DNA of 64,000 nt from Pelotomaculum thermopropionicum SI (lineage in GTDB: Bacteria; Bacillota; Desulfotomaculia; Desulfotomaculales; Pelotomaculaceae): assembly GCA_000010565.1 (NCBI GenBank), contig AP009389.1:2728001-2792000 (forward strand). The letters run 5' to 3'. The notes beneath the pieces are model-generated. The model did no database searches and was not told the DNA's origin. It was given only the letters and a program-made list of their open reading frames with translations. Shown piece after piece: positions 2,639 to 45,628 of the stretch. Within the stretch, counting starts at the first letter, position 1. Each line of letters opens with the position of its first letter. The translations under genes were made by a program, and so were the position numbers.

Positions 2639-3334
2639 TTATTTCTTCCCCCGCTGCTGCACCGTTGTTAAGACGGCGGTAATTCCAAAAGAAATAATCA
2701 GTAAAATGATGCTCAGGGCGGTGGCAATTTCCCATTCCCCTTTACCGACCTCCAGCACAATGGCAGTGGTCAGCACCCTGGTGTAGCCCTCAAGGTTGCC
2801 CCCCACCATTATTGAAGCGCCGACCTCGGAAATGGCGCCGCCGAAACCGGCCATAACGGCGGCCAGAAGGCCCAGCCTGGCCTCCCGCAAAAGCAGCCAG
2901 AGCAGTTGCAGCCGCGAGGCGCCCAGGGCCAAAATTTGAAGCCTGATTTTAGGATTCAGGGACTGGATGGCGGCAATGGCAAACCCGGTGACAATCGGCG
3001 CGGCAATGATTACCTGGGCGGTAATCATGGCCGTGGGAGTGTAAAGCAGGCCCAGGATGCCCAGAGGGCCGTAGCGGGCCAGCGCCAGCCAGACTGCCAG
3101 GCCAACCACTACCGGAGGCAGCCCCATGCCGAAATTAACCGTGCTTACCACCAGCCGCCGCCCCGGAAAAGAGGCCAGGGCCAGAAAGGCGCCCGCCGGC
3201 AGGCCTATCAAAACGCTGATAATTGTGGCCGTGCCGGAAACCTGAATGGTGCGCAGCACTATTTCCAGAACTTCGCGGTCTCTGCTAAGCAGGAGGCGGA
3301 GCGCCTCCGCCAGACCCTGCCAGTATACGTCCAA
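2639..3334 (-). CDS. tungstate-type ABC transporter permease (TupB-like), orphan
   Basis: Integral membrane permease of the tungstate/molybdate ABC uptake family, about 231 residues with five or six hydrophobic segments. It has the family block VVGLAVWLALARYGPLG and the EAA-loop region (GASRLQLLWLLLREARLGLL). TupB rather than ModB is suggested by length and by the GGAISEVGASIMVGGN block (family knowledge). No binding protein or ATPase gene is adjacent, which is unusual. The start may be TTG at 3334 (AAGGTGG five bases upstream) or GTG at 3343. It has its own promoter at 3361-3388 and a ModE-like palindrome at 3407-3430. Confidence 0.85.
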   Translation of the reverse strand: MDVYWQGLAEALRLLLSRDREVLEIVLRTIQVSGTATIISVLIGLPAGAFLALASFPGRRLVVSTVNFGMGLPPVVVGLAVWLALARYGPLGILGLLYTPTAMITAQVIIAAPIVTGFAIAAIQSLNPKIRLQILALGASRLQLLWLLLREARLGLLAAVMAGFGGAISEVGASIMVGGNLEGYTRVLTTAIVLEVGKGEWEIATALSIILLIISFGITAVLTTVQQRGKK

Positions 3335-3828: not shown

Positions 3829-4068
3829 TTAACCTCCACCAACCGGAGGAAAGATGGAAACCCTGTCACCATCGGCAAGGACTACGTCAAATCCCTTGTG
3901 AACGCCGTTTACCATAAAGGAAAAGGCCATTTTCTCGGGGATGTTCAGCTTTTCCAAAAGCATCCGCCCGGTGAAATTCTCGGTTATTTCGACCGGTATG
4001 GCCTGCCCGAATTTGGTGCCCGGGATGAAGCTTTCAAGGCCGCAATAGACCCTTACTTCCACCTGCAA
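3829..4068 (-). CDS. MoaD/ThiS-family sulfur carrier protein
   Basis: A 79-residue beta-grasp protein ending in VGGG, the C-terminal diglycine that is adenylated and thiocarboxylated in MoaD and ThiS. The ADGDRVSIFPPVGGG block is typical. TTG start at 4068 with AAGGAGG ten bases upstream. Its stop codon overlaps the ribosome site of the ModE-like gene, so the two form a unit. In this setting it is probably a molybdopterin or tungstopterin synthase small subunit; no MoaE is in the window. ThiS or an aldehyde oxidoreductase carrier is a possible alternative. Confidence 0.85.
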   Translation of the reverse strand: MQVEVRVYCGLESFIPGTKFGQAIPVEITENFTGRMLLEKLNIPEKMAFSFMVNGVHKGFDVVLADGDRVSIFPPVGGG

Positions 4069-4140
4069 AAGCCATCTGCCTCCTTTTGCAAAACAAGCTT
4101 CAAATTACAGTAACAATTCAACTTGAAGCAGGCAAATCCT

Positions 4141-23202: not shown

Positions 23203-23345
23203 TGATGGTTACCTCCTTTCAACTCACTCCTTTCCATAGCGGGAGGCGCAGCAGTTTCCCGCCGCACCCTGTCGGCCTGCTGCCGTGCCGCCGCGGCGGT
23301 TTAGGCAGCCGGGCTCGGAGTTTGCGATTTATTAAAACTCTGCTC

Positions 23346-33914: not shown

Positions 33915-34126
33915 CCCAAACTACCTGCCTCCCGGACCCGATTTCTACACATTTTAATATATATTTATTCGGCAGGTTCAAATTTAAGCCGGCAACACTT
34001 TCTTGCGGCCGGGCAAAAATAATAAACCCGGTGCAAATTAAATATACCGAGGTATGGGATAGACCTTATAGTATTCTAAGAAAGGGTTTATCCCTATTTT
34101 TATTCCTATAAAATTAGTTAAATATA

Positions 34127-34155
34127 TTGTTTTAATATAGTACTAGTAGTACAAT
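34127..34155 (+). promoter_or_regulatory. promoter of the Tn554-like genes with embedded palindrome
   Basis: TTGTTT (34127-34132), 17-base spacer, TACAAT (34150-34155). The palindrome GTACTA-G-TAGTAC (34140-34152) overlaps the spacer and -10, a good place for a repressor. Confidence 0.6.
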
Positions 34156-34190
34156 ATAGAAAATATTTCATTTAATGGTGGTGTTTGCCA

Positions 34191-35321
34191 ATGAGGGTGG
34201 AAACGATTAGAACTTCCGATGGAAAAATCCGATATATGCTGGTTGACTCAGACAGTGAACCCGTCCTTCCCGTCATGCGGTTCATCAAGTTCAAGGATAA
34301 CAGCGGAGCCGCACGGAACAGCCTCCGTTCCTACTGCCAGCACCTGAAACTTTTTTTCGAGTTCATTGAGCAGGAGGGGCTGGATTATCGTAAAATCAGC
34401 ATCGACGACATGGCTGCTTTCATGCGCTGGCTTCAGAACCCCTACGGGAACCTGAAAGTAATCCCAGTGACGCCCGTAACGTCCCCCCGCGGACCGGCCA
34501 CCGTGAACACCGTCATCTCCACGGTCCTCAATTTCTACGACTACCTCATGCGCCATGAGGACTATAGCGTCCAGCTCTCCGAAAGGCTTAAAAAGACCAT
34601 CCCCGGGAGCAGGAGGGGCTTTAAAGACTTTCTCTACCACGTCAACAAGGACAAGGAGTACCCGGCCAAGATTTTAAAGGTCAAGGTCCGCCGTTCCCGG
34701 CCCAAGACCATTTCTAAAGAGCAGGTGGGCAAGTTGATTGACGCCTGCTCAAACTTAAGGAATAAGTTTTTAATCCAGCTTTTATGGGAAAGCTCCATTC
34801 GTATCGGCGAGGCCCTGGCCCTGTGGCTGGAGGACTTTGAGCCCGACGGGCAAAAGATCCACATCCGGGACAGGGGGGAACTTCCCAACCTCGCCGAAAT
34901 TAAAACTATCTGCAGCCCCCGGACGGTGGACGTTTCCCCGGATTTAATCAACCTGTTTTTCGACTATGTGGCTGAATTCCACACGGACGAAGTGGACACA
35001 AACCACGTTTTTATTAAACTGTCCGGTGAAAATAGGTATCAACCCATGGAATACCAGGACGTCGCCTCTCTTTTCCGCAGGCTGAAGGCCAAAACGGGAA
35101 TTGGCGTCAGCCCCCACATCCTCCGGCACAGCTCCTTAACCGAACTGCGCCGGGCCGGCTGGAAGCCGGAACACTTGCGAAAACGGGCCGGACATGCCCA
35201 TGTCCAGACCACCACGCAAATTTACTTGCACCCGAGCGATGAAGACATGCGCAAGGACTGGGAGAAGGCAGAGGAAAAAATGCGCCTTAAACGGCAGCAA
35301 AAGGAGGGCTCTGAACAGTGA
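34191..35321 (+). CDS. TnpA-like tyrosine recombinase
   Basis: About 376 residues: an N-terminal SAM-like core-binding domain (SLRSYCQHLKLFFEFIEQEG) and a C-terminal catalytic domain with the first Arg in SSIRIGEAL, HILRHSSLTELRRAG (H-x2-R), GHAHVQTT, and the tyrosine in TQIYLH. Family and gene order match Tn554 TnpA. ATG at 34191 with GGTGGTG upstream; a TTG at 34185 is possible. Overlaps the next gene by four bases. Confidence 0.9.
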   Translation: MRVETIRTSDGKIRYMLVDSDSEPVLPVMRFIKFKDNSGAARNSLRSYCQHLKLFFEFIEQEGLDYRKISIDDMAAFMRWLQNPYGNLKVIPVTPVTSPRGPATVNTVISTVLNFYDYLMRHEDYSVQLSERLKKTIPGSRRGFKDFLYHVNKDKEYPAKILKVKVRRSRPKTISKEQVGKLIDACSNLRNKFLIQLLWESSIRIGEALALWLEDFEPDGQKIHIRDRGELPNLAEIKTICSPRTVDVSPDLINLFFDYVAEFHTDEVDTNHVFIKLSGENRYQPMEYQDVASLFRRLKAKTGIGVSPHILRHSSLTELRRAGWKPEHLRKRAGHAHVQTTTQIYLHPSDEDMRKDWEKAEEKMRLKRQQKEGSEQ

Positions 35322-37288
35322 GTACGGTTTACCGGCCGGTCCCGACGCTAGCAAAATTACAAGAGATCGAGGAAACCTTGTCAGGCTACTGGGAAAAGGA
35401 CAGGTGGGTAATTACTGACCCCATCTTTGACGAGTTTCGGCCTGAAAGGTGGACTTTAACCAACAAAACTATTGACTTTTCCCGCCTACAACCAGGTATT
35501 AAGGGAGAGGTCAAGTTTTTCTTTGTTCACCGCCTCCAGGAACACACCTTGCGATTAAAAACGGCGGTCGTTTACGGAGTTTGCTTTGCCCGCCTGGCTG
35601 AATTTCTAGAACGGGCTTATCCCAGGATTAAAAGTTTTACGGACTTGGAAATAGAAAAGGCCATGATTAGGTGGCGTTCTTACCTAATTGAGCAGGGGTT
35701 TAAGATTAATAAAGATAGCCGCTTGTCCAGTAATGAATACGAAACTCTGTTACAGCAGGTATATCAGTTTATGGTCAACTTCTACGACGAGCGGGAGGAG
35801 TTTGAAAAGAACGTCTGGGATGTGCGGAAAATACCAGGAGCGAAATATACCCAAAACAAAGCTCTTTACCTGCTTTCCTTTGAGGGCATTCCCCTTCCCT
35901 TCCGGCCCCTGGCTAAAAGATACCTGAAGGTACGGGTAGGCATTCGGTCATATACCCAATGTGCAACAGACTTGATGGCTCTGCGTTTGTTTCTGTGTTT
36001 CATTCACAAGCAATATCCTCACTGGAAAGACCTTAAGAGTTTATCTCGTAAGGATATAGAGAATTACCTGGCATGGTACCGGTCGTACACAGAAGGTTGG
36101 CGAAAACAGCATTATGAATATTTAGTCAGCCTGCGGAGCTTTTTAGATTACATACAGCGGGCCGGGTACCCGGAGGCGCCGGAAAAGCCTCATTTTTTGC
36201 TGTTGTTCAAGGAAGATTTCCCTAGGCTGGCTAAGCGGTCGGAAGAAGATATTAAATTTATCCCTGAAGGGGTTCTAAGGCAACTGGAAGAAAATCTGGA
36301 TCAGCTTACGCCCCCGGAGTACATCCCTGTAGTCGTTCTTCTTCGTGCTACGGGCTGGCGCATCTCCGACATCCTGAACCTTCGTTACGATAACTGCCTG
36401 GACCGTACTGCCCAAGGGTGGTGGCTCTGCGGGGATATTCTGAAAACGCAGGTGCTGAACCACCGCGTTCCCATTACCGACGAGGTGGCTACAGTGGTTC
36501 AGGCAGTAGTTGATGAGATCAAAGAAAAAAGCACGCCGGAAAACAACCCTCATAAATTGCTGTTCGTGCGACTGGAAGGAAAACGCAGGGGCCGCCCACC
36601 AATGGGGTTGCTCATTCAACAGGCTCTCATTCGCTTGGCCCAAAAATGCAACATCGTAGACGATCAGGGCCGGGTATTTCATTTTGGTAACCATGCTTTC
36701 CGCCACACTAAAGGCGTGGAGTTAATTAACAACGGGATGAACATTCTTCACGTCCAAAAGTGGATGGCCCACGCTTCCCCGGAAATGACCCTGCGTTACG
36801 CAAAGATCCTGGACACCACCATGCGGAAGTCCTGGGAAGAGGCCACGAAAAACGGCCTTTTCCGGATTGACCCTACAGGGAAGCCCGTAAGGATCGACCC
36901 TTCCGAAATCGAGAACGAAGATTTAATTGAGTGGGAGTATATCCGCCACAACCTGGATGCGGTGAGGACGCCCTTAGGGTACTGCCTTAAGCCCCACAAG
37001 GTGGAGTGCAAGCACCAGTTAAACCCCTGCCTGACCTGCCGCAATTTATGCACCACCCCTGATTTTATCCCGCAGTTCGAGGCGGAAATCAGGGAGGTAA
37101 AGGCTGTCATCGAGCGCGGCAAGGCCCAGGGCCGGACCATCTGGGTGGAGAAAAACGAGACCCTTCTGGAGCGTTACGAAGCGATTCTGACTGTTCTAAA
37201 GGAAGGCCATACCCATCACCTGGCAGGGAAAAAAGGGCGAGAGTACGTGGGGGAGGAACGTTTAAATGTCCGGCAAACACCAGCGTAA
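35318..37288 (+). CDS. TnpB-like tyrosine recombinase with C-terminal Cys cluster
   Basis: A 656-residue recombinase. Catalytic residues: Arg in ATGWRISDILNLRYD, H-x2-R in HAFRHTKGVEL, His/Trp-region HASPEMT, and Tyr in LRYAKI. After the catalytic domain there is a cysteine group (VECKHQLNPCLTCRNLC) and a helical tail, as in Tn554 TnpB. This is the transposon protein, not the IS200/IS605 TnpB nuclease. GTG start overlaps the TnpA stop (GTGA). Confidence 0.9.
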   Translation: MSTVYRPVPTLAKLQEIEETLSGYWEKDRWVITDPIFDEFRPERWTLTNKTIDFSRLQPGIKGEVKFFFVHRLQEHTLRLKTAVVYGVCFARLAEFLERAYPRIKSFTDLEIEKAMIRWRSYLIEQGFKINKDSRLSSNEYETLLQQVYQFMVNFYDEREEFEKNVWDVRKIPGAKYTQNKALYLLSFEGIPLPFRPLAKRYLKVRVGIRSYTQCATDLMALRLFLCFIHKQYPHWKDLKSLSRKDIENYLAWYRSYTEGWRKQHYEYLVSLRSFLDYIQRAGYPEAPEKPHFLLLFKEDFPRLAKRSEEDIKFIPEGVLRQLEENLDQLTPPEYIPVVVLLRATGWRISDILNLRYDNCLDRTAQGWWLCGDILKTQVLNHRVPITDEVATVVQAVVDEIKEKSTPENNPHKLLFVRLEGKRRGRPPMGLLIQQALIRLAQKCNIVDDQGRVFHFGNHAFRHTKGVELINNGMNILHVQKWMAHASPEMTLRYAKILDTTMRKSWEEATKNGLFRIDPTGKPVRIDPSEIENEDLIEWEYIRHNLDAVRTPLGYCLKPHKVECKHQLNPCLTCRNLCTTPDFIPQFEAEIREVKAVIERGKAQGRTIWVEKNETLLERYEAILTVLKEGHTHHLAGKKGREYVGEERLNVRQTPA

Positions 37289-37655
37289 CACGGGAGGAAT
37301 GAAAAAACACGCCCGGCACAAGAGCGAGGAAACCGTGAAAAAGGTTGACGAGGCCATCCAGAGGCTAATCAAGGCTGGGGAGAAAATCAACTTCAACAGC
37401 GTTTCTCTGGAGGCCAGGGTGAGTAAGTCTTATCTCTACACCCACCAGGAGATTAAGGAGTGCATCGAGAACCTCCGTAAGCAGCAGGCGGCCGCGCCTT
37501 CTCCGAAGCAGATAAAACGGGAAATGACCGATGCCAGCAAGGATATTATTATTGCTGCAAAAAACAAACGTATCAAGGAACTGGAAGCCGAAAACAAACG
37601 GTTGAAAGAGGAACTTAAAATGCTGCGGGGAAAGCTTTACGAATCATTGGAGTAG
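37266..37655 (+). CDS. TnpC-like small helical transposition protein (DUF6262-like)
   Basis: 129 residues. A basic N-terminal part and helix-turn-helix-like centre (NFNSVSLEARVSKSYLYTH) followed by a C-terminal coiled coil (KNKRIKELEAENKRLKEEL). Tn554 TnpC influences orientation and frequency of transposition (family knowledge). ATG at 37266 overlaps TnpB by 23 bases. Confidence 0.85.
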   Translation: MSGKHQRNTGGMKKHARHKSEETVKKVDEAIQRLIKAGEKINFNSVSLEARVSKSYLYTHQEIKECIENLRKQQAAAPSPKQIKREMTDASKDIIIAAKNKRIKELEAENKRLKEELKMLRGKLYESLE

Positions 37656-37714
37656 GATTAATTTTACGAACGTAATCATTCTTAAAATGGTTATGCTTAT
37701 TATTGCCGCAGCCG

Positions 37715-37892
37715 GGCCTGTGGATATGTGGGCAACGCGAAGCGTTGTCCAAGCGAGTGTGAACCCTGTGGACAGGCGGGAAGCAAACCAATGAACTGCC
37801 TGGAAATTCAGGGTTCGGTTAGATAACCCCGATTGGTGAGATGAACCCTTGTGCCTGTCCACAAGTCCACACGAGCGGCATATCCACAGGCC
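37715..37892. repeat. nested inverted repeats after tnpC
   Basis: Outer arms GGCCTGTGGATATG (37715-37728) and its exact complement (37879-37892). Inner arms TGTGGACAGGC (37767-37777) and exact complement (37853-37863). Between them lie hairpins CAACGC-GAA-GCGTTG (37733-37747) and GGTTA-GA-TAACC (37817-37828). The whole could fold as one branched RNA or DNA structure of 178 bases. Confidence 0.8.
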
Positions 37893-37994
37893 TAAAGCAG
37901 GATTAGAGGTTCCCCATGTTGCGAGTCTGGTTTTGGAGTACGCTTAATATTTTAAACACAAAAATATACGTTGTGGATATATACAGAAAGTGAG

Positions 37995-38024
37995 AACCTT
38001 GTGTTTACAGGGTTTTTTCTTTTT
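37995..38024 (+). terminator. terminator after the Tn554-like genes
   Basis: AACCTTGT, loop GTTT, ACAGGGTT (one G-U pair) followed by TTTTCTTTTT. Confidence 0.75.
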
Positions 38025-38103
38025 AGGTATATATAAAAAAACCCGGATTTATTTTTTAGCGTTGAAAAATTATCCCGCTTAAATTTTTTTGGTTCAAATT
38101 GCC

Positions 38104-42122: not shown

Positions 42123-43079
42123 ATGGAACCAACTTTATTCGATCCTTTATGTTACGCTGAGGAAAGCCAAAAAGAAAATACAATTGTTATAGGCCCCCCA
42201 TCCTTGCTTTCTAAAATTGATAAAGAAACATCGTACATAATAACAGGGGACGCTTTGACTGCGTTAAAACAATTACCCGAAGAGACCGTCCAGACCTGCG
42301 TTACCTCACCCCCTTATTGGGGGCTTCGCGATTACGGCATCCCGGACCAGATCGGTACGGAGATGGATGTTTGCGAATACCTGGACAAACTTGTTAAAGT
42401 ATTCCGGGAGGTAAAAAGAGTTTTAAAACCCGACGGAACTTTCTGGTTGAATATGGGTGACGGGTACACCAGCGGGGGGAGGACTTACCGGGCACCCGAC
42501 AAAAAAACTGACAACGACCACGTGGTGCGCGGACTGCCTTTCCGGCCTCCTACTCCGGCCGGTTTAAAACCAAAGGATCTCCTGGGCCTGCCGTGGCGGC
42601 TGGCTTTCTTGTTGCAAGAAGACGGCTGGTATTTAAGGGCAGATATTATATGGTTTAAACCTAACATACTTCCTGAAAGCGTTAAAGACAGGCCGACTAT
42701 TGCCCACGAATATATTTTTTTACTCACTAAGAACGAACGTTATTATTATGATTACCAGGCAATTCTTGAGCCAGCGGTTTCCGGTAAAGGCTACCGAAAC
42801 AAGCGGTCAGTCTGGGCCGTGAATACCGAGCCTTATCCGGAAGCCCATTTCGCGACCTTCCCTCCATCCCTTGTTCTGCCCTGCATCCTGGCCGGGTCAA
42901 AACCAGACGATCTCGTGCTCGACCCCTTTTTGGGTTCGGGCACTACAGGGCTAGTGGCCTTACAAAAAAAGAGGAATTTTATCGGTATCGAGCTAAATCC
43001 TGAATATTGTGCACTGGCCGAAAAAAGGCTTACTCCCTATGCCATGATCCTGAAAAACGAAACCGAAACGGAGGCTTGA
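42123..43079 (+). CDS. type II DNA methyltransferase (beta class, probably N4-cytosine)
   Basis: A 318-residue SAM-dependent DNA methyltransferase. The catalytic motif TSPPYWGLRDYG comes first and the SAM-binding motif FLGSGTTGLVA near the C-terminus, the beta-class order. SPPY favours N4-methylcytosine. The recognition domain is in the middle. ATG at 42123. Base composition is more AT-rich than its neighbours, suggesting transfer. The endonuclease gene follows after three bases. Confidence 0.92.
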   Translation: MEPTLFDPLCYAEESQKENTIVIGPPSLLSKIDKETSYIITGDALTALKQLPEETVQTCVTSPPYWGLRDYGIPDQIGTEMDVCEYLDKLVKVFREVKRVLKPDGTFWLNMGDGYTSGGRTYRAPDKKTDNDHVVRGLPFRPPTPAGLKPKDLLGLPWRLAFLLQEDGWYLRADIIWFKPNILPESVKDRPTIAHEYIFLLTKNERYYYDYQAILEPAVSGKGYRNKRSVWAVNTEPYPEAHFATFPPSLVLPCILAGSKPDDLVLDPFLGSGTTGLVALQKKRNFIGIELNPEYCALAEKRLTPYAMILKNETETEA

Positions 43080-43082
43080 ATT

Positions 43083-44039
43083 GTGGAAACCTTGATTCTC
43101 ACAAAACAAATGTGGGTAATCAATCGCTTAAAGTCCGAACGTGGAAAAATTCTGCGTGACGCCTTAAGGGAAGCCGTGGGAAAAGTAGGAGTCCAGGTCA
43201 TTGACCGCGAGCTTCACGACTTGGTCAGCACAAGCGCCCTCAATAAATTGGGAACGTTCGGCCTGCGCGGAGAAGTCCTTTTTGCCGTACCCAGCCTGAT
43301 TAAAGAAAAACCGACTATTTCTGGTTACTATCGGCTTGTCCTGGGAATTTCCCAAAAAGAATACGGCAGGAAAGGCTTGGACAAGTGGATTAAAATTGAA
43401 AAAGGAGAAAGCGCTACTGTTTCGGAAAACGAAGTACGGGATCTTTGCGTAATACTCATCGAGGCGGGAGAACGGTTATTGAGCGTGTTTAGCAGCAGGG
43501 ATAACATTACTGAAGATTTCTTCCACGAGCTTACCTTGCTAACTCTAGGGGCGCAATTGGACGGGAGTTACCGGGTAATCGTCGGCCAGAAGGCGGTAGC
43601 TGTCATCCGGGAGTTAATAGAAAACATCATTAAACCGAAAAAACCTGATAGTTTCCGGAAAAAGAGTAATGAAATCGAATTTAATAACGCGGCGGGCCGG
43701 CAGGTAAGAATACGTTTCGGCTCCGACCCGGATATATTGGTTAGCGAGCGGTCCGGCAACCAGGACCGGCACCTGCTAGCGATAGAAGTAAAAGGGGGCA
43801 GCGACCCTTCCAATATTCACAACAGATTGGGCGAGGCGGAAAAAAGCCACTTGAAGCTATCCGCAAGCGGTGTCTTGCGCTGGACTATAATAGGGGTTCC
43901 GGTTGACGAAAAAACGGCCCGTATGCGCTCACCTAGTACAAATCGGTTTTATGCGATAAGTAATTTGCTTATTAACGGAAGCCAGGAGTACGAAAGTTTT
44001 CGACGGGAGTTAATTTCAATCCTAGGCCTTCCTGAATAA
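43083..44039 (+). CDS. type II restriction endonuclease, possibly XcyI-like
   Basis: A 318-residue protein paired with the methyltransferase. It contains a PD-(D/E)xK-like core: GSDPDILVSER followed by LLAIEVKGGSD, then IHNRLGEAEKSHLK. This pattern and an N4-cytosine methylase partner resemble XcyI/CCCGGG systems (from memory). GTG start at 43083. The IS element lies 40 bases after the stop. Confidence 0.75.
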   Translation: METLILTKQMWVINRLKSERGKILRDALREAVGKVGVQVIDRELHDLVSTSALNKLGTFGLRGEVLFAVPSLIKEKPTISGYYRLVLGISQKEYGRKGLDKWIKIEKGESATVSENEVRDLCVILIEAGERLLSVFSSRDNITEDFFHELTLLTLGAQLDGSYRVIVGQKAVAVIRELIENIIKPKKPDSFRKKSNEIEFNNAAGRQVRIRFGSDPDILVSERSGNQDRHLLAIEVKGGSDPSNIHNRLGEAEKSHLKLSASGVLRWTIIGVPVDEKTARMRSPSTNRFYAISNLLINGSQEYESFRRELISILGLPE

Positions 44040-44079: not shown

Positions 44080-45628
44080 ACTCAACTTTCGCAGGGCGAA
44101 AGTTTGAGGCGACCCTTTAAGAACGAAGGCAAACAGGAAATAAAATTATTGACCAGTTCCTGCAAAGCACCATCTGTTATTGCAAGAAATTTTCTCAACG
44201 TATTTTTGAGCATTGCCAAAAGCAATTGAAATGCCTCTGCAAAACTTATGTCCTGCAGTTCGTCACAGCAAACATAAAATAGATCACCGAGAGTCCTCGG
44301 GTCCTTGCTTTCACGGTTTTCTAGAGCGAGCATGATGTAACGGCAGAAGACAATCGTGGTATGGGCCACCATAGAATCATATGTTCTTCCCTGGAATTCC
44401 CTGGCCAGGTTCAAAAAGGATTTGGTGGTTTTAAAGAACACCTCGATACTCCAGCGTTTTCCGTAAATACGAATGATTTCTTCATCGGTCAGCTCTAGAT
44501 CAGTTGAAAGCAATGCCAGCCATTTTTTAGACCGGTTCCGGTCCCGGATGAATACAATCCGTGCCGGTACCGGATTACCCTCTGAATCAATGCCGATTTG
44601 GACAAGAGCACTTGCCAGGATCTTGGCTTTACCAGGCTTTTTGAGAAGTTCTTTGTAAAGGGTATCAAGGGTCACCTTCTCCCCTTTATAGGTGTACAGA
44701 ACTCTTTTCATTGATTTAAGCATGCATATCACATGGAGGAGATGCTGTTCACGAACCCTGCAGATAATAGACGGGAAGGCAAACCAGCTATCGAAAAGAA
44801 GATACCTTGCCTGTACACCATATTCCCGGGCTTGACGCAAGAGATCAAACATTACTTCGGTAGACTTTTTGATGCTTTCCACCCTTCTTTTATAGCCAGT
44901 GGTACGCTTATCGATCCGTGGGTCAATTCCGCAAAGCCGGTTGCGTTCATTTTCTGAGCTGAGCAAGGAGAAAGCAACCGGCAGAAAAGTATTGCCGTCC
45001 GACCAGCCCAGGGTGAGCATCCTAAATCCACGGACATACTTGTTTTCAACATGGTCTTTTACCCTGGCCAGCAATTCAACAGCCTTGCTTCTGTTGCGGC
45101 TGTAGAGGGAATCGTCAAGAACAAGTACATTTTTCCAGTTGCGGGAGGTCAAAGGTTCAATGGTTTCATTGATTACAGATGAACTCAGGATAAGCAAAAA
45201 TTTTCGCCAGTTGTACCGGAACGAATTCAAAAAGCGATAAATTGCGTCTTTCTCTGGCCTTCCGGGTTCAGCTTCAGATTGTAATGTGCGATAAAGATTC
45301 TTGCCGTTAAAGACAAGCAGAAAAATGAACTTGAAAAGTTCAAGGCAGCTAAATCCCTTTTCCTTTTGAAAATTGGAGCGGCGTAATATTTTACCAATTT
45401 CGTGCCTGGATAAAAAATTATCCACACGAGAGTTAAACTGTTTTTCAATTTCATATTGTTCTGGTAAAATAGAGTTCATAAGGACACCCTTTCGTCTTGT
45501 TAGAATGGTCTTGCCAACTCTATTTTACCAAGACAAGGGTGTCTTTTGCTGTTTTTCTTCAAAAATTATTGCAAAAAATCCAGTTATATCAAGGATTCGA
45601 GACTGTTATCTTTGTGAGAAAGTCGAGT
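44080..45628 (-). mobile_element. IS4-family insertion sequence, copy 2
   Basis: Same 1549-bp element as at 11988-13536, sequence-identical where compared, including the 14-base terminal repeats and the leader hairpins. Flanking direct repeat TAATC (44075-44079 and 45629-45633), with one more shared base (A) possible. It sits between the endonuclease gene and thrC, ending 30 bases before the thrC start codon. Confidence 0.93.
44082..45479 (-). CDS. IS4-family transposase (copy 2)
   Basis: A 465-residue DDE transposase with a product identical to that at 11990-13387: VLVLDDS, LLFDSW and the YGKRWSIEVFFKTTK signature. Intact. The start site is covered by the interleaved inverted repeats at 45463-45543. 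Confidence 0.95.
   Translation of the reverse strand: MNSILPEQYEIEKQFNSRVDNFLSRHEIGKILRRSNFQKEKGFSCLELFKFIFLLVFNGKNLYRTLQSEAEPGRPEKDAIYRFLNSFRYNWRKFLLILSSSVINETIEPLTSRNWKNVLVLDDSLYSRNRSKAVELLARVKDHVENKYVRGFRMLTLGWSDGNTFLPVAFSLLSSENERNRLCGIDPRIDKRTTGYKRRVESIKKSTEVMFDLLRQAREYGVQARYLLFDSWFAFPSIICRVREQHLLHVICMLKSMKRVLYTYKGEKVTLDTLYKELLKKPGKAKILASALVQIGIDSEGNPVPARIVFIRDRNRSKKWLALLSTDLELTDEEIIRIYGKRWSIEVFFKTTKSFLNLAREFQGRTYDSMVAHTTIVFCRYIMLALENRESKDPRTLGDLFYVCCDELQDISFAEAFQLLLAMLKNTLRKFLAITDGALQELVNNFISCLPSFLKGRLKLSPCES

Follow-up and report, generated by a model that had tools for sequence, protein, structure and literature searches.

Complementary-strand synthesis on plasmids is served by single-strand initiation (ssi) sites, and an ssi-like palindrome of pIGRK is described as dispensable, its loss raising copy number and multimerisation (PMC7690428, PMC6854812); ColE1-like plasmids are also described as having ssi (PMC2831885). 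For Tn554-type elements the proposed route is exchange of one strand together with an IS911-like copy-out of the top strand, and the account given for strand-biased elements, by analogy Tn554, is that the top strand is circularised and replicated, the circles being nicked double strands (PMC10214605). Copy-out is further described for IS30 (PMC9333248) and for an IS256-type element (PMC7780238), and the DnaA-trio is described as a run of three or more triplets that share a conserved middle A and lie near a DnaA box (PMC8287927). Copy-out transposons recruit host replication in passing from the one-strand bridge to the circle.

The module described here, found in a window of 64,000 nucleotides of the Pelotomaculum thermopropionicum SI genome, shares with ssi sites, primosome assembly sites and ABC-primosome A-sites a hairpin on one strand, and a hairpin of the same kind occurs in Pasteurellaceae plasmids; unlike ssi (the classical examples being compared by description) it is mainly transposon-borne, has a fixed polarity and lies near the element end. 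The sso of rolling-circle plasmids and ICEs, likened by description rather than by comparison of motifs, are hairpin-based starts for the second strand, i.e. the role proposed for the module, but no rolling-circle replication protein was seen beside it. Similar to BUS / DnaA-trio, the module has a triplet tract 5' of a short spacer together with DnaA-box-like motifs; unlike them, the middle base of its triplets is not a conserved A and the boxes sit in hairpin stems. Its host element has tnpA, tnpB and tnpC in the order of the Tn554 family, with two tyrosine recombinases, whereas the module itself is an extra part that is absent from two close relatives. Members of that family transpose without duplicating the target and with a 6-base footprint from the left flank. 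The closest kind is the ssi sites, and as a part common to unrelated transposons, with a polarity and a place near the end, the module seems new, no earlier description having been found in Rfam or in the literature covered, which mostly excludes subscription papers. The features in the window are as follows.

34038-38036, + strand: Tn554-like element carrying the module; ends from a three-copy comparison, uncertain by a few bases
34185-35321, + strand: tnpA-like tyrosine recombinase gene (PF00589, E 2e-22)
35318-37288, + strand: tnpB-like tyrosine recombinase gene (PF00589, E 5e-20)
37266-37655, + strand: tnpC-like gene (DUF6262), from open reading frame and domain match
37703-37714, + strand: (YNG)4 triplet tract, TTG CCG CAG CCG, directly before P1, read from the sequence
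37715-37892, + strand: the module; covariance model match at 37716-37891 (59.7 bits, E 2.5e-12)
37715-37728, + strand: P1 5' arm, GGCCTGTGGATATG, pairing with 37879-37892 (14/14 complementary)
37730-37750, + strand: P2 hairpin, GGGCAACGC-GAA-GCGTTGTCC, between the two left arms, from sequence, fold and covariance model
37757-37872, + strand: third arm, a nested second unit; outer stem 37757-37764 / 37865-37872 with one A-C mismatch
37767-37777, + strand: inner 5' arm, TGTGGACAGGC, pairing with 37853-37863 (11/11)
37853-37863, + strand: inner 3' arm, GCCTGTCCACA, partner of the inner 5' arm
37879-37892, + strand: P1 3' arm, CATATCCACAGGCC, partner of the P1 5' arm
37992-38017, + strand: terminator-like hairpin with T tail (one found against 0.5 expected in shuffles)

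The window version is a common core (P1, P2 and AAGC linker) with a second, similar unit nested inside it. The nested perfect arms of 14 bp and 11 bp reported in the preliminary description are complementary throughout. For the 211-nt stretch the folding energy is -96.4 kcal/mol; 200 dinucleotide shuffles give -66.2 +/- 3.8 kcal/mol, and none of them reached the native energy (z -8.0; opposite strand, z -7.4). To that description the analysis adds the P2 hairpin, the (YNG)4 tract and the 37757-37764 / 37865-37872 stem, which closely encloses the inner arms. The module lies between tnpC, whose frame ends ~60 bp on its 5' side, and the right end of the element, ~144 bp inside the terminus according to the three-copy comparison. 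No promoter-like site for the canonical strand was found in 37600-38100, and for the module Rfam gave no match in the window at the gathering cut-off and none up to E 10 in 37600-38000.

Within the 3,025,375-base genome the module stretch occurs six times, three occurrences being identical and three at 84%, and all six tnpC copies of this genome adjoin a module. A second type shares with the window type 12 of its 14 P1 pairs and the inner arms, and differs from it inside the nested unit. Three pairs are weakened or lost in the second type: at the outer end of P1 two pairs are replaced by G-T and A-C, and one P2 pair changes from G-C to T-T; in the reverse direction, the A-C mismatch of the window type is G-C in the second type. 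TnpC relatives are present in eight of 199 Bacillota genomes, Pelotomaculum included. Eight loci, drawn from six of the other seven genomes, were read by eye after tnpC and did not show the module (L185 and L187 being set aside as partial matches), and the covariance model gave zero matches up to E 1 in the six tnpC loci L179-L184. Since two close Tn554 relatives, with TnpC 92-94% identical, are without it, the module is not essential to Tn554. One of these loci, L180 (92% TnpC), resembles an empty site, with tnpC, ~20 nt and then conserved right-end sequence.

The homology search proposed in the preliminary description located the module in many genomes, beside unrelated transposases. The outer part (P1 stem, P2 hairpin and AAGC linker) recurs in Alphaproteobacteria, in Bacillota and in single records of other lineages, which among the matches listed are, by record titles, Anaerolineales, Elusimicrobia, Sulfotelmatobacter, Actinobacteria, Sulfuricaulis and one archaeal MAG, mis-binning being possible for the MAG records. 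A plain similarity search of plasmids gave matches of 37-40 bases to the outer part in 12 records from Bradyrhizobium, in two of which IS3-type transposase ends adjoin the match. A pattern scan of genomes of 84,980 species, with several letters held fixed, returned at least 119 stretches (one with two matches), mostly from Alphaproteobacteria and also from Bacillota; these reduced to 105 closed hits with enough flank and to 76 distinct copies, which are related, so that counts are not independent events. The covariance model R1, built from 40 distinct copies with none from the Pelotomaculum genome, matched in 24 of 299 Bacillota genomes, Pelotomaculum included. One IS3-linked copy was found in viral contigs, and phage and E. 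coli collections gave zero matches at E 1 with one 59-base query.

Copies fall into size classes of 43-48, 53-57, 66-69, ~100-112 and ~170 nt, the last being the window type. P1 sits directly on P2 in the 43-48 nt class; a short third arm, e.g. AAGCGCAGCG, is present in the 53-57 nt class and a third hairpin, variable in sequence yet still paired, in the 66-69 nt class, and the third arm of the ~100-112 and ~170 nt classes is another TGTGG...TCCACA unit, i.e. a unit nested in a unit. In alignment A1, comprising 40 of the 76 distinct copies with long inserts and near-identical rows dropped, 94.8% of cells pair and 12 of 29 pairs show changes on both sides, against 5.4 in shuffles, while sliding the partner columns destroys the signal; some columns were fixed by the search pattern, and the evidential weight is that of the free columns. 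Across the 76 copies, pair N2 of P1 is C-G in 42, T-A in 18, G-A in 12 and otherwise in four; pair N1 of P1 is G-T in 54, A-T in 13, G-C in five and otherwise in four; and pair 5 of P2 is A-T in 68, G-C in seven and A-C in one. Among departures from Watson-Crick pairing G-T is far commoner than A-C. RNAalifold recovered P2 alone from a second alignment, A2, because that alignment mixes two layouts. The pairing of the module is kept by compensatory changes. Apart from the weakened or lost pairs of the second type it is not broken in relatives, broken pairing there being a refuting outcome named in the preliminary description. Loci L222 and L223 of genome G190 hold two copies, one of two units and another that forms a long hairpin containing TGTGGATAA and TTATCCACA; a 160-aa piece of the protein beside these modules had no Pfam match.

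With RNA parameters the canonical strand (TGTGG...AAGC) folds more stably than its complement in 130 of 131 distinct copies, and with DNA parameters in 129 of 131, i.e. the module folds on one defined strand, as is expected of ssi sites. The sole exception with RNA parameters, L166, comes from an IS30-like element and is a cut copy. This test included the window copy, the second type and some cut copies; unclosed copies were omitted, as were those that are not whole modules (L007, L008, L015, L019, L021, L025-L027) and those cut or repeated (L201, L207, L211, L212, L214, L215, L224, L225). The mean gap between strands was 9.5 kcal/mol with RNA and 4.4 kcal/mol with DNA parameters, and the wider separation with RNA parameters, as an RNA would give, was counted against the ssi reading.

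Directly 5' of P1 most copies carry a run of YNG triplets. Runs of at least three are found in 63% of the 117 distinct flanks; the figure is 3.2% at other sites of these loci, i.e. about twentyfold lower, and 2.3% in shuffles. In runs of at least three the middle base is mostly T in IS3 and IS21 copies, and C or A in IS110 copies; identification of the tract as BUS / DnaA-trio was considered and set aside on these middle bases. DnaA-box-like 9-mers with at most two mismatches number 2.9 per copy, against 0.18 in shuffles, and occur in 136/136 copies (73/136 at one mismatch or fewer and 7/136 perfect), an enrichment that is not independent, the copies being one family, and in which the rarity of perfect boxes was counted against the ssi reading. 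In the ABC-primosome A-site, a DnaA box lies in a hairpin stem.

Seed searches and Pfam place the module beside IS21, IS3, IS110, IS30-like, ISNCY-like and IS481-like transposases as well as Tn554, the unrelated transposases including DDE and DEDD types; the ISNCY, IS481-like and IS30 labels are our assumption, the proteins tested having given HTH domains or DUF6431 in Pfam. The module is not specific to Tn554. In a control read by eye, 35 of 58 module places (15 genomes) lay within ~1.6 kb of a listed IS110 or rve match, six more were Tn554, and the other 17 fell in neither group. In a control for PF01609, drawn from the matches listed of 239 in total, one module place (G299:C87) lay near a PF01609 transposase match yet resembles IS3-linked copies. 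A frame that we read as IS5-type adjoins L112, a record without a seed match, and at L110 a frame that we take to be IS630-like stands beside a truncated IS3-type module, as if inserted into it.

The transposase gene lies on the 3' side of the module, in sense or antisense, in 103 of 108 distinct copies, a count drawn from 196 records (77 without a seed match of at least 80 bits and 11 sequence repeats) with seeds taken from the same loci, frames running through the module scored as 3' side and some loci reached by two routes; the copies being related, the polarity may rest on only some seven or eight families. These 103 comprise IS3 (40), IS21 (34), IS110 (18, nine sense and nine antisense), IS481-like (four), ISNCY-like (three), IS30-like (three) and IS256 (one, at L026, which may be a chance insertion). 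Relative to the transposase gene, the canonical strand is the antisense one in the IS3 and IS21 rows and in nine of the 18 IS110 rows; elsewhere it is the sense strand. The five exceptions are three Tn554 rows, two of them identical copies, and two IS21 rows that we believe to be one locus. In insertion sequences, the direction of the module follows the element end and not the orientation of the gene. In Tn554 it is the 3' side that faces the element end (~144 bp), opposite to the insertion-sequence polarity, and this counts against the ssi reading.

Comparison of copies, using gapless extensions that give lower bounds where copies differ by gaps and that in many pairs ended earlier, puts the module roughly 55-200 bp from where shared sequence stops. 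Beyond its 5' side, shared sequence stops at 118-121 bp in an IS110 element (four copies), at 119-122 bp in an IS30-like element of the same genome (three copies) and at 144-145 bp in an IS3 element (three of four copies; 60 bp against the fourth). Most alphaproteobacterial IS3 copies stop at ~103-109 bp, with one pair running to 306 bp; in IS21 sharing extends up to 149-201 bp, many pairs diverging earlier; and the stop is at 74-76 bp in two other elements and at 56-67 bp in one more IS110. The transposase frame of IS3 passes through the module on the opposite strand, and in many IS21 copies the istB frame ends ~11 bp before it; a coding origin of the module was rejected on the positions of the istB (~11 bp) and tnpC (~60 bp) ends before it. 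Translation of the complementary strand of the module gives the LDNAxALPTxPQ-like peptide found at the C terminus of IS3 transposases (L078, L134, L146, L163), and similar peptides can be read near other elements.

Replication-type and conjugation-type genes also occur near some copies of the module: an SSB gene at 50 bp (L079), DnaD-like and ParA-like proteins within ~1 kb (L154, L157) and a TrbL-like protein (L170), the protein match of the last being just below the cut-off. The RepA-type plasmids L022 and L023 gave short, weak covariance-model matches of ~22 bits, and L024 gave none; a hairpin related to that of L024 lies 78 bp after the replication-protein gene in a Xanthomonas plasmid. 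Two GTGG..AAC hairpins in a row are seen in L022 (about 2990-3130) and in L023 (about 3990-4130). Small Pasteurellaceae plasmids carry a 27-nt hairpin like that of the nested unit, and 84 records match a 61-base query around it. In pPSAS1522 and pB1000' this hairpin lies ~130-140 nt past a sequence that we take to resemble the ColE1 origin, Rfam giving no support for such an origin there; its position fits a ColE1-like layout, i.e. on the lagging-strand template past the start of replication, if the origin motif is as we assume. The links to plasmid origins are the weaker ones.

The reading that we favour, with confidence that is evenly balanced, is that the module is an ssi, i.e. primosome-assembly-like, site for the replication of copy-out intermediates. 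It is based on the observed conservation, pairing, strand preference, polarity, nearness to the end and spread over unrelated elements; that the module works as single-stranded DNA rather than RNA, through a host factor and in transposition, we infer. Also weighed against it were the short plasmid matches, the phage and E. coli result with the 59-base query, the 77 records lacking a seed match, the YNG tract, the two Tn554 relatives that have no module and the strand expected from the IS2 pathway. Of the functions suggested in the preliminary description, an origin-like site is thus the one that the evidence favours, with a regulatory RNA retained as the main rival. The module would be a widespread mobile-element part comprising a YNG tract, P1 as closing junction, P2 and a short, long or nested third arm, and would act as folded single-stranded DNA of one defined strand. 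A copy-out transposon, or the incoming or lagging strand of a plasmid, would expose the canonical strand, whose hairpins, with the DnaA-box-like stem motifs TGTGGATA/TATCCACA, might recruit host priming (DnaA, PriA or primase) and lead to DnaB helicase and the making of the complementary strand; the folded strand near the end would load the helicase onto the displaced strand, as ssi do on plasmids. Because the transposases beside the module are unrelated, the factor that it recruits probably belongs to the host. The strand that folds in the window is the top strand, in line with what the ssi model predicts. Copy-out is also used by IS21 and IS110. Copy-out elements, like conjugating and ColE1-like plasmids, present a single strand that has to become double-stranded. 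In the IS2 pathway the right end is the donor, and the coding strand would then be the one circularised, which is not the strand required for the IS3 copies; under the ssi model the donor end in IS3 would have to be the left one. The wider proposal, to which we give slightly less than even credence, is that a portable replication-start hairpin has been acquired by several unrelated transposon families and by plasmids across phyla, with a fixed polarity in insertion sequences and a place 55-200 bp from the end, where it would load the host replisome at copy-out.

The main rival, which we think unlikely, is a structured non-coding RNA from the canonical strand that would act on transposition in cis or in trans, as a regulator, guide or stability element. 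Consistent with an RNA are the alternation of A-U, G-U and G-C at one P1 pair (13 A-T, 54 G-T and 5 G-C of 76), the strand gap that is largest with RNA parameters, and the position of the window module between tnpC and a terminator-like hairpin. However, the folding strand runs antisense to the transposase gene in some families (IS3, IS21, half of IS110) and sense elsewhere, the polarity tracks the element end and not the gene, neither a canonical-strand promoter-like site in 37600-38100 nor an Rfam match was found, and the module is also near replication-type genes. An improbable alternative is a selfish passenger, i.e. a small hairpin element that inserts itself close to the ends of elements that form circles and is of no use to them; the comparison with the empty-site-like L180, the spread over unrelated elements and the nested units, as if one copy had entered another, would suit it, whereas the same polarity and similar end distance in unrelated families, and pairs kept by compensatory change with no enzyme of its own seen, argue against it. 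A site acting as double-stranded DNA (a cruciform, or a site for DnaA titration or at the replication fork) and coupling transposition to host replication would agree with the DnaA-box-like 9-mers present at two mismatches or fewer in every one of the 136 copies and with the near-perfect palindrome, but neither the near-absolute strand preference nor a third arm that stays paired while its sequence varies would be expected of it, and we consider it quite improbable. A folded recombination end, or a binding site for TnpA, TnpB or TnpC of Tn554, as the preliminary description had raised for the first two proteins, would explain the presence of the module at all six tnpC copies of Pelotomaculum and is hardly credible, given that the module lies ~144 bp inside the terminus rather than at the element end, is not common to Tn554-like elements, being absent from the two relatives with 92-94% TnpC identity, and occurs beside unrelated DDE and DEDD transposases and in other contexts, i.e. 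without these recombinase genes, an occurrence that the preliminary description had itself named as refuting.

Were the module an ssi-like site, it would be a shared cis-element for a poorly understood replication step of copy-out transposition, and that step would become directly testable, given a conserved cis-site for which strand, polarity and host partner are predicted. Circle-forming elements might then be found from non-coding DNA, transposons and plasmids would be linked through a common replication part, and the recurrent C-terminal peptide of IS3 would be a by-product of the module on the other strand. Elsewhere in the window, an RF01055 molybdenum/tungsten cofactor riboswitch lies at 23211-23332 (- strand, 69.4 bits), and a type II restriction-modification pair at 42123-44039 (+ strand), comprising an N6/N4 DNA methylase and an XcyI-type endonuclease (PF09571, E 5e-152), is adjoined by a DDE transposase at 44082-45479.
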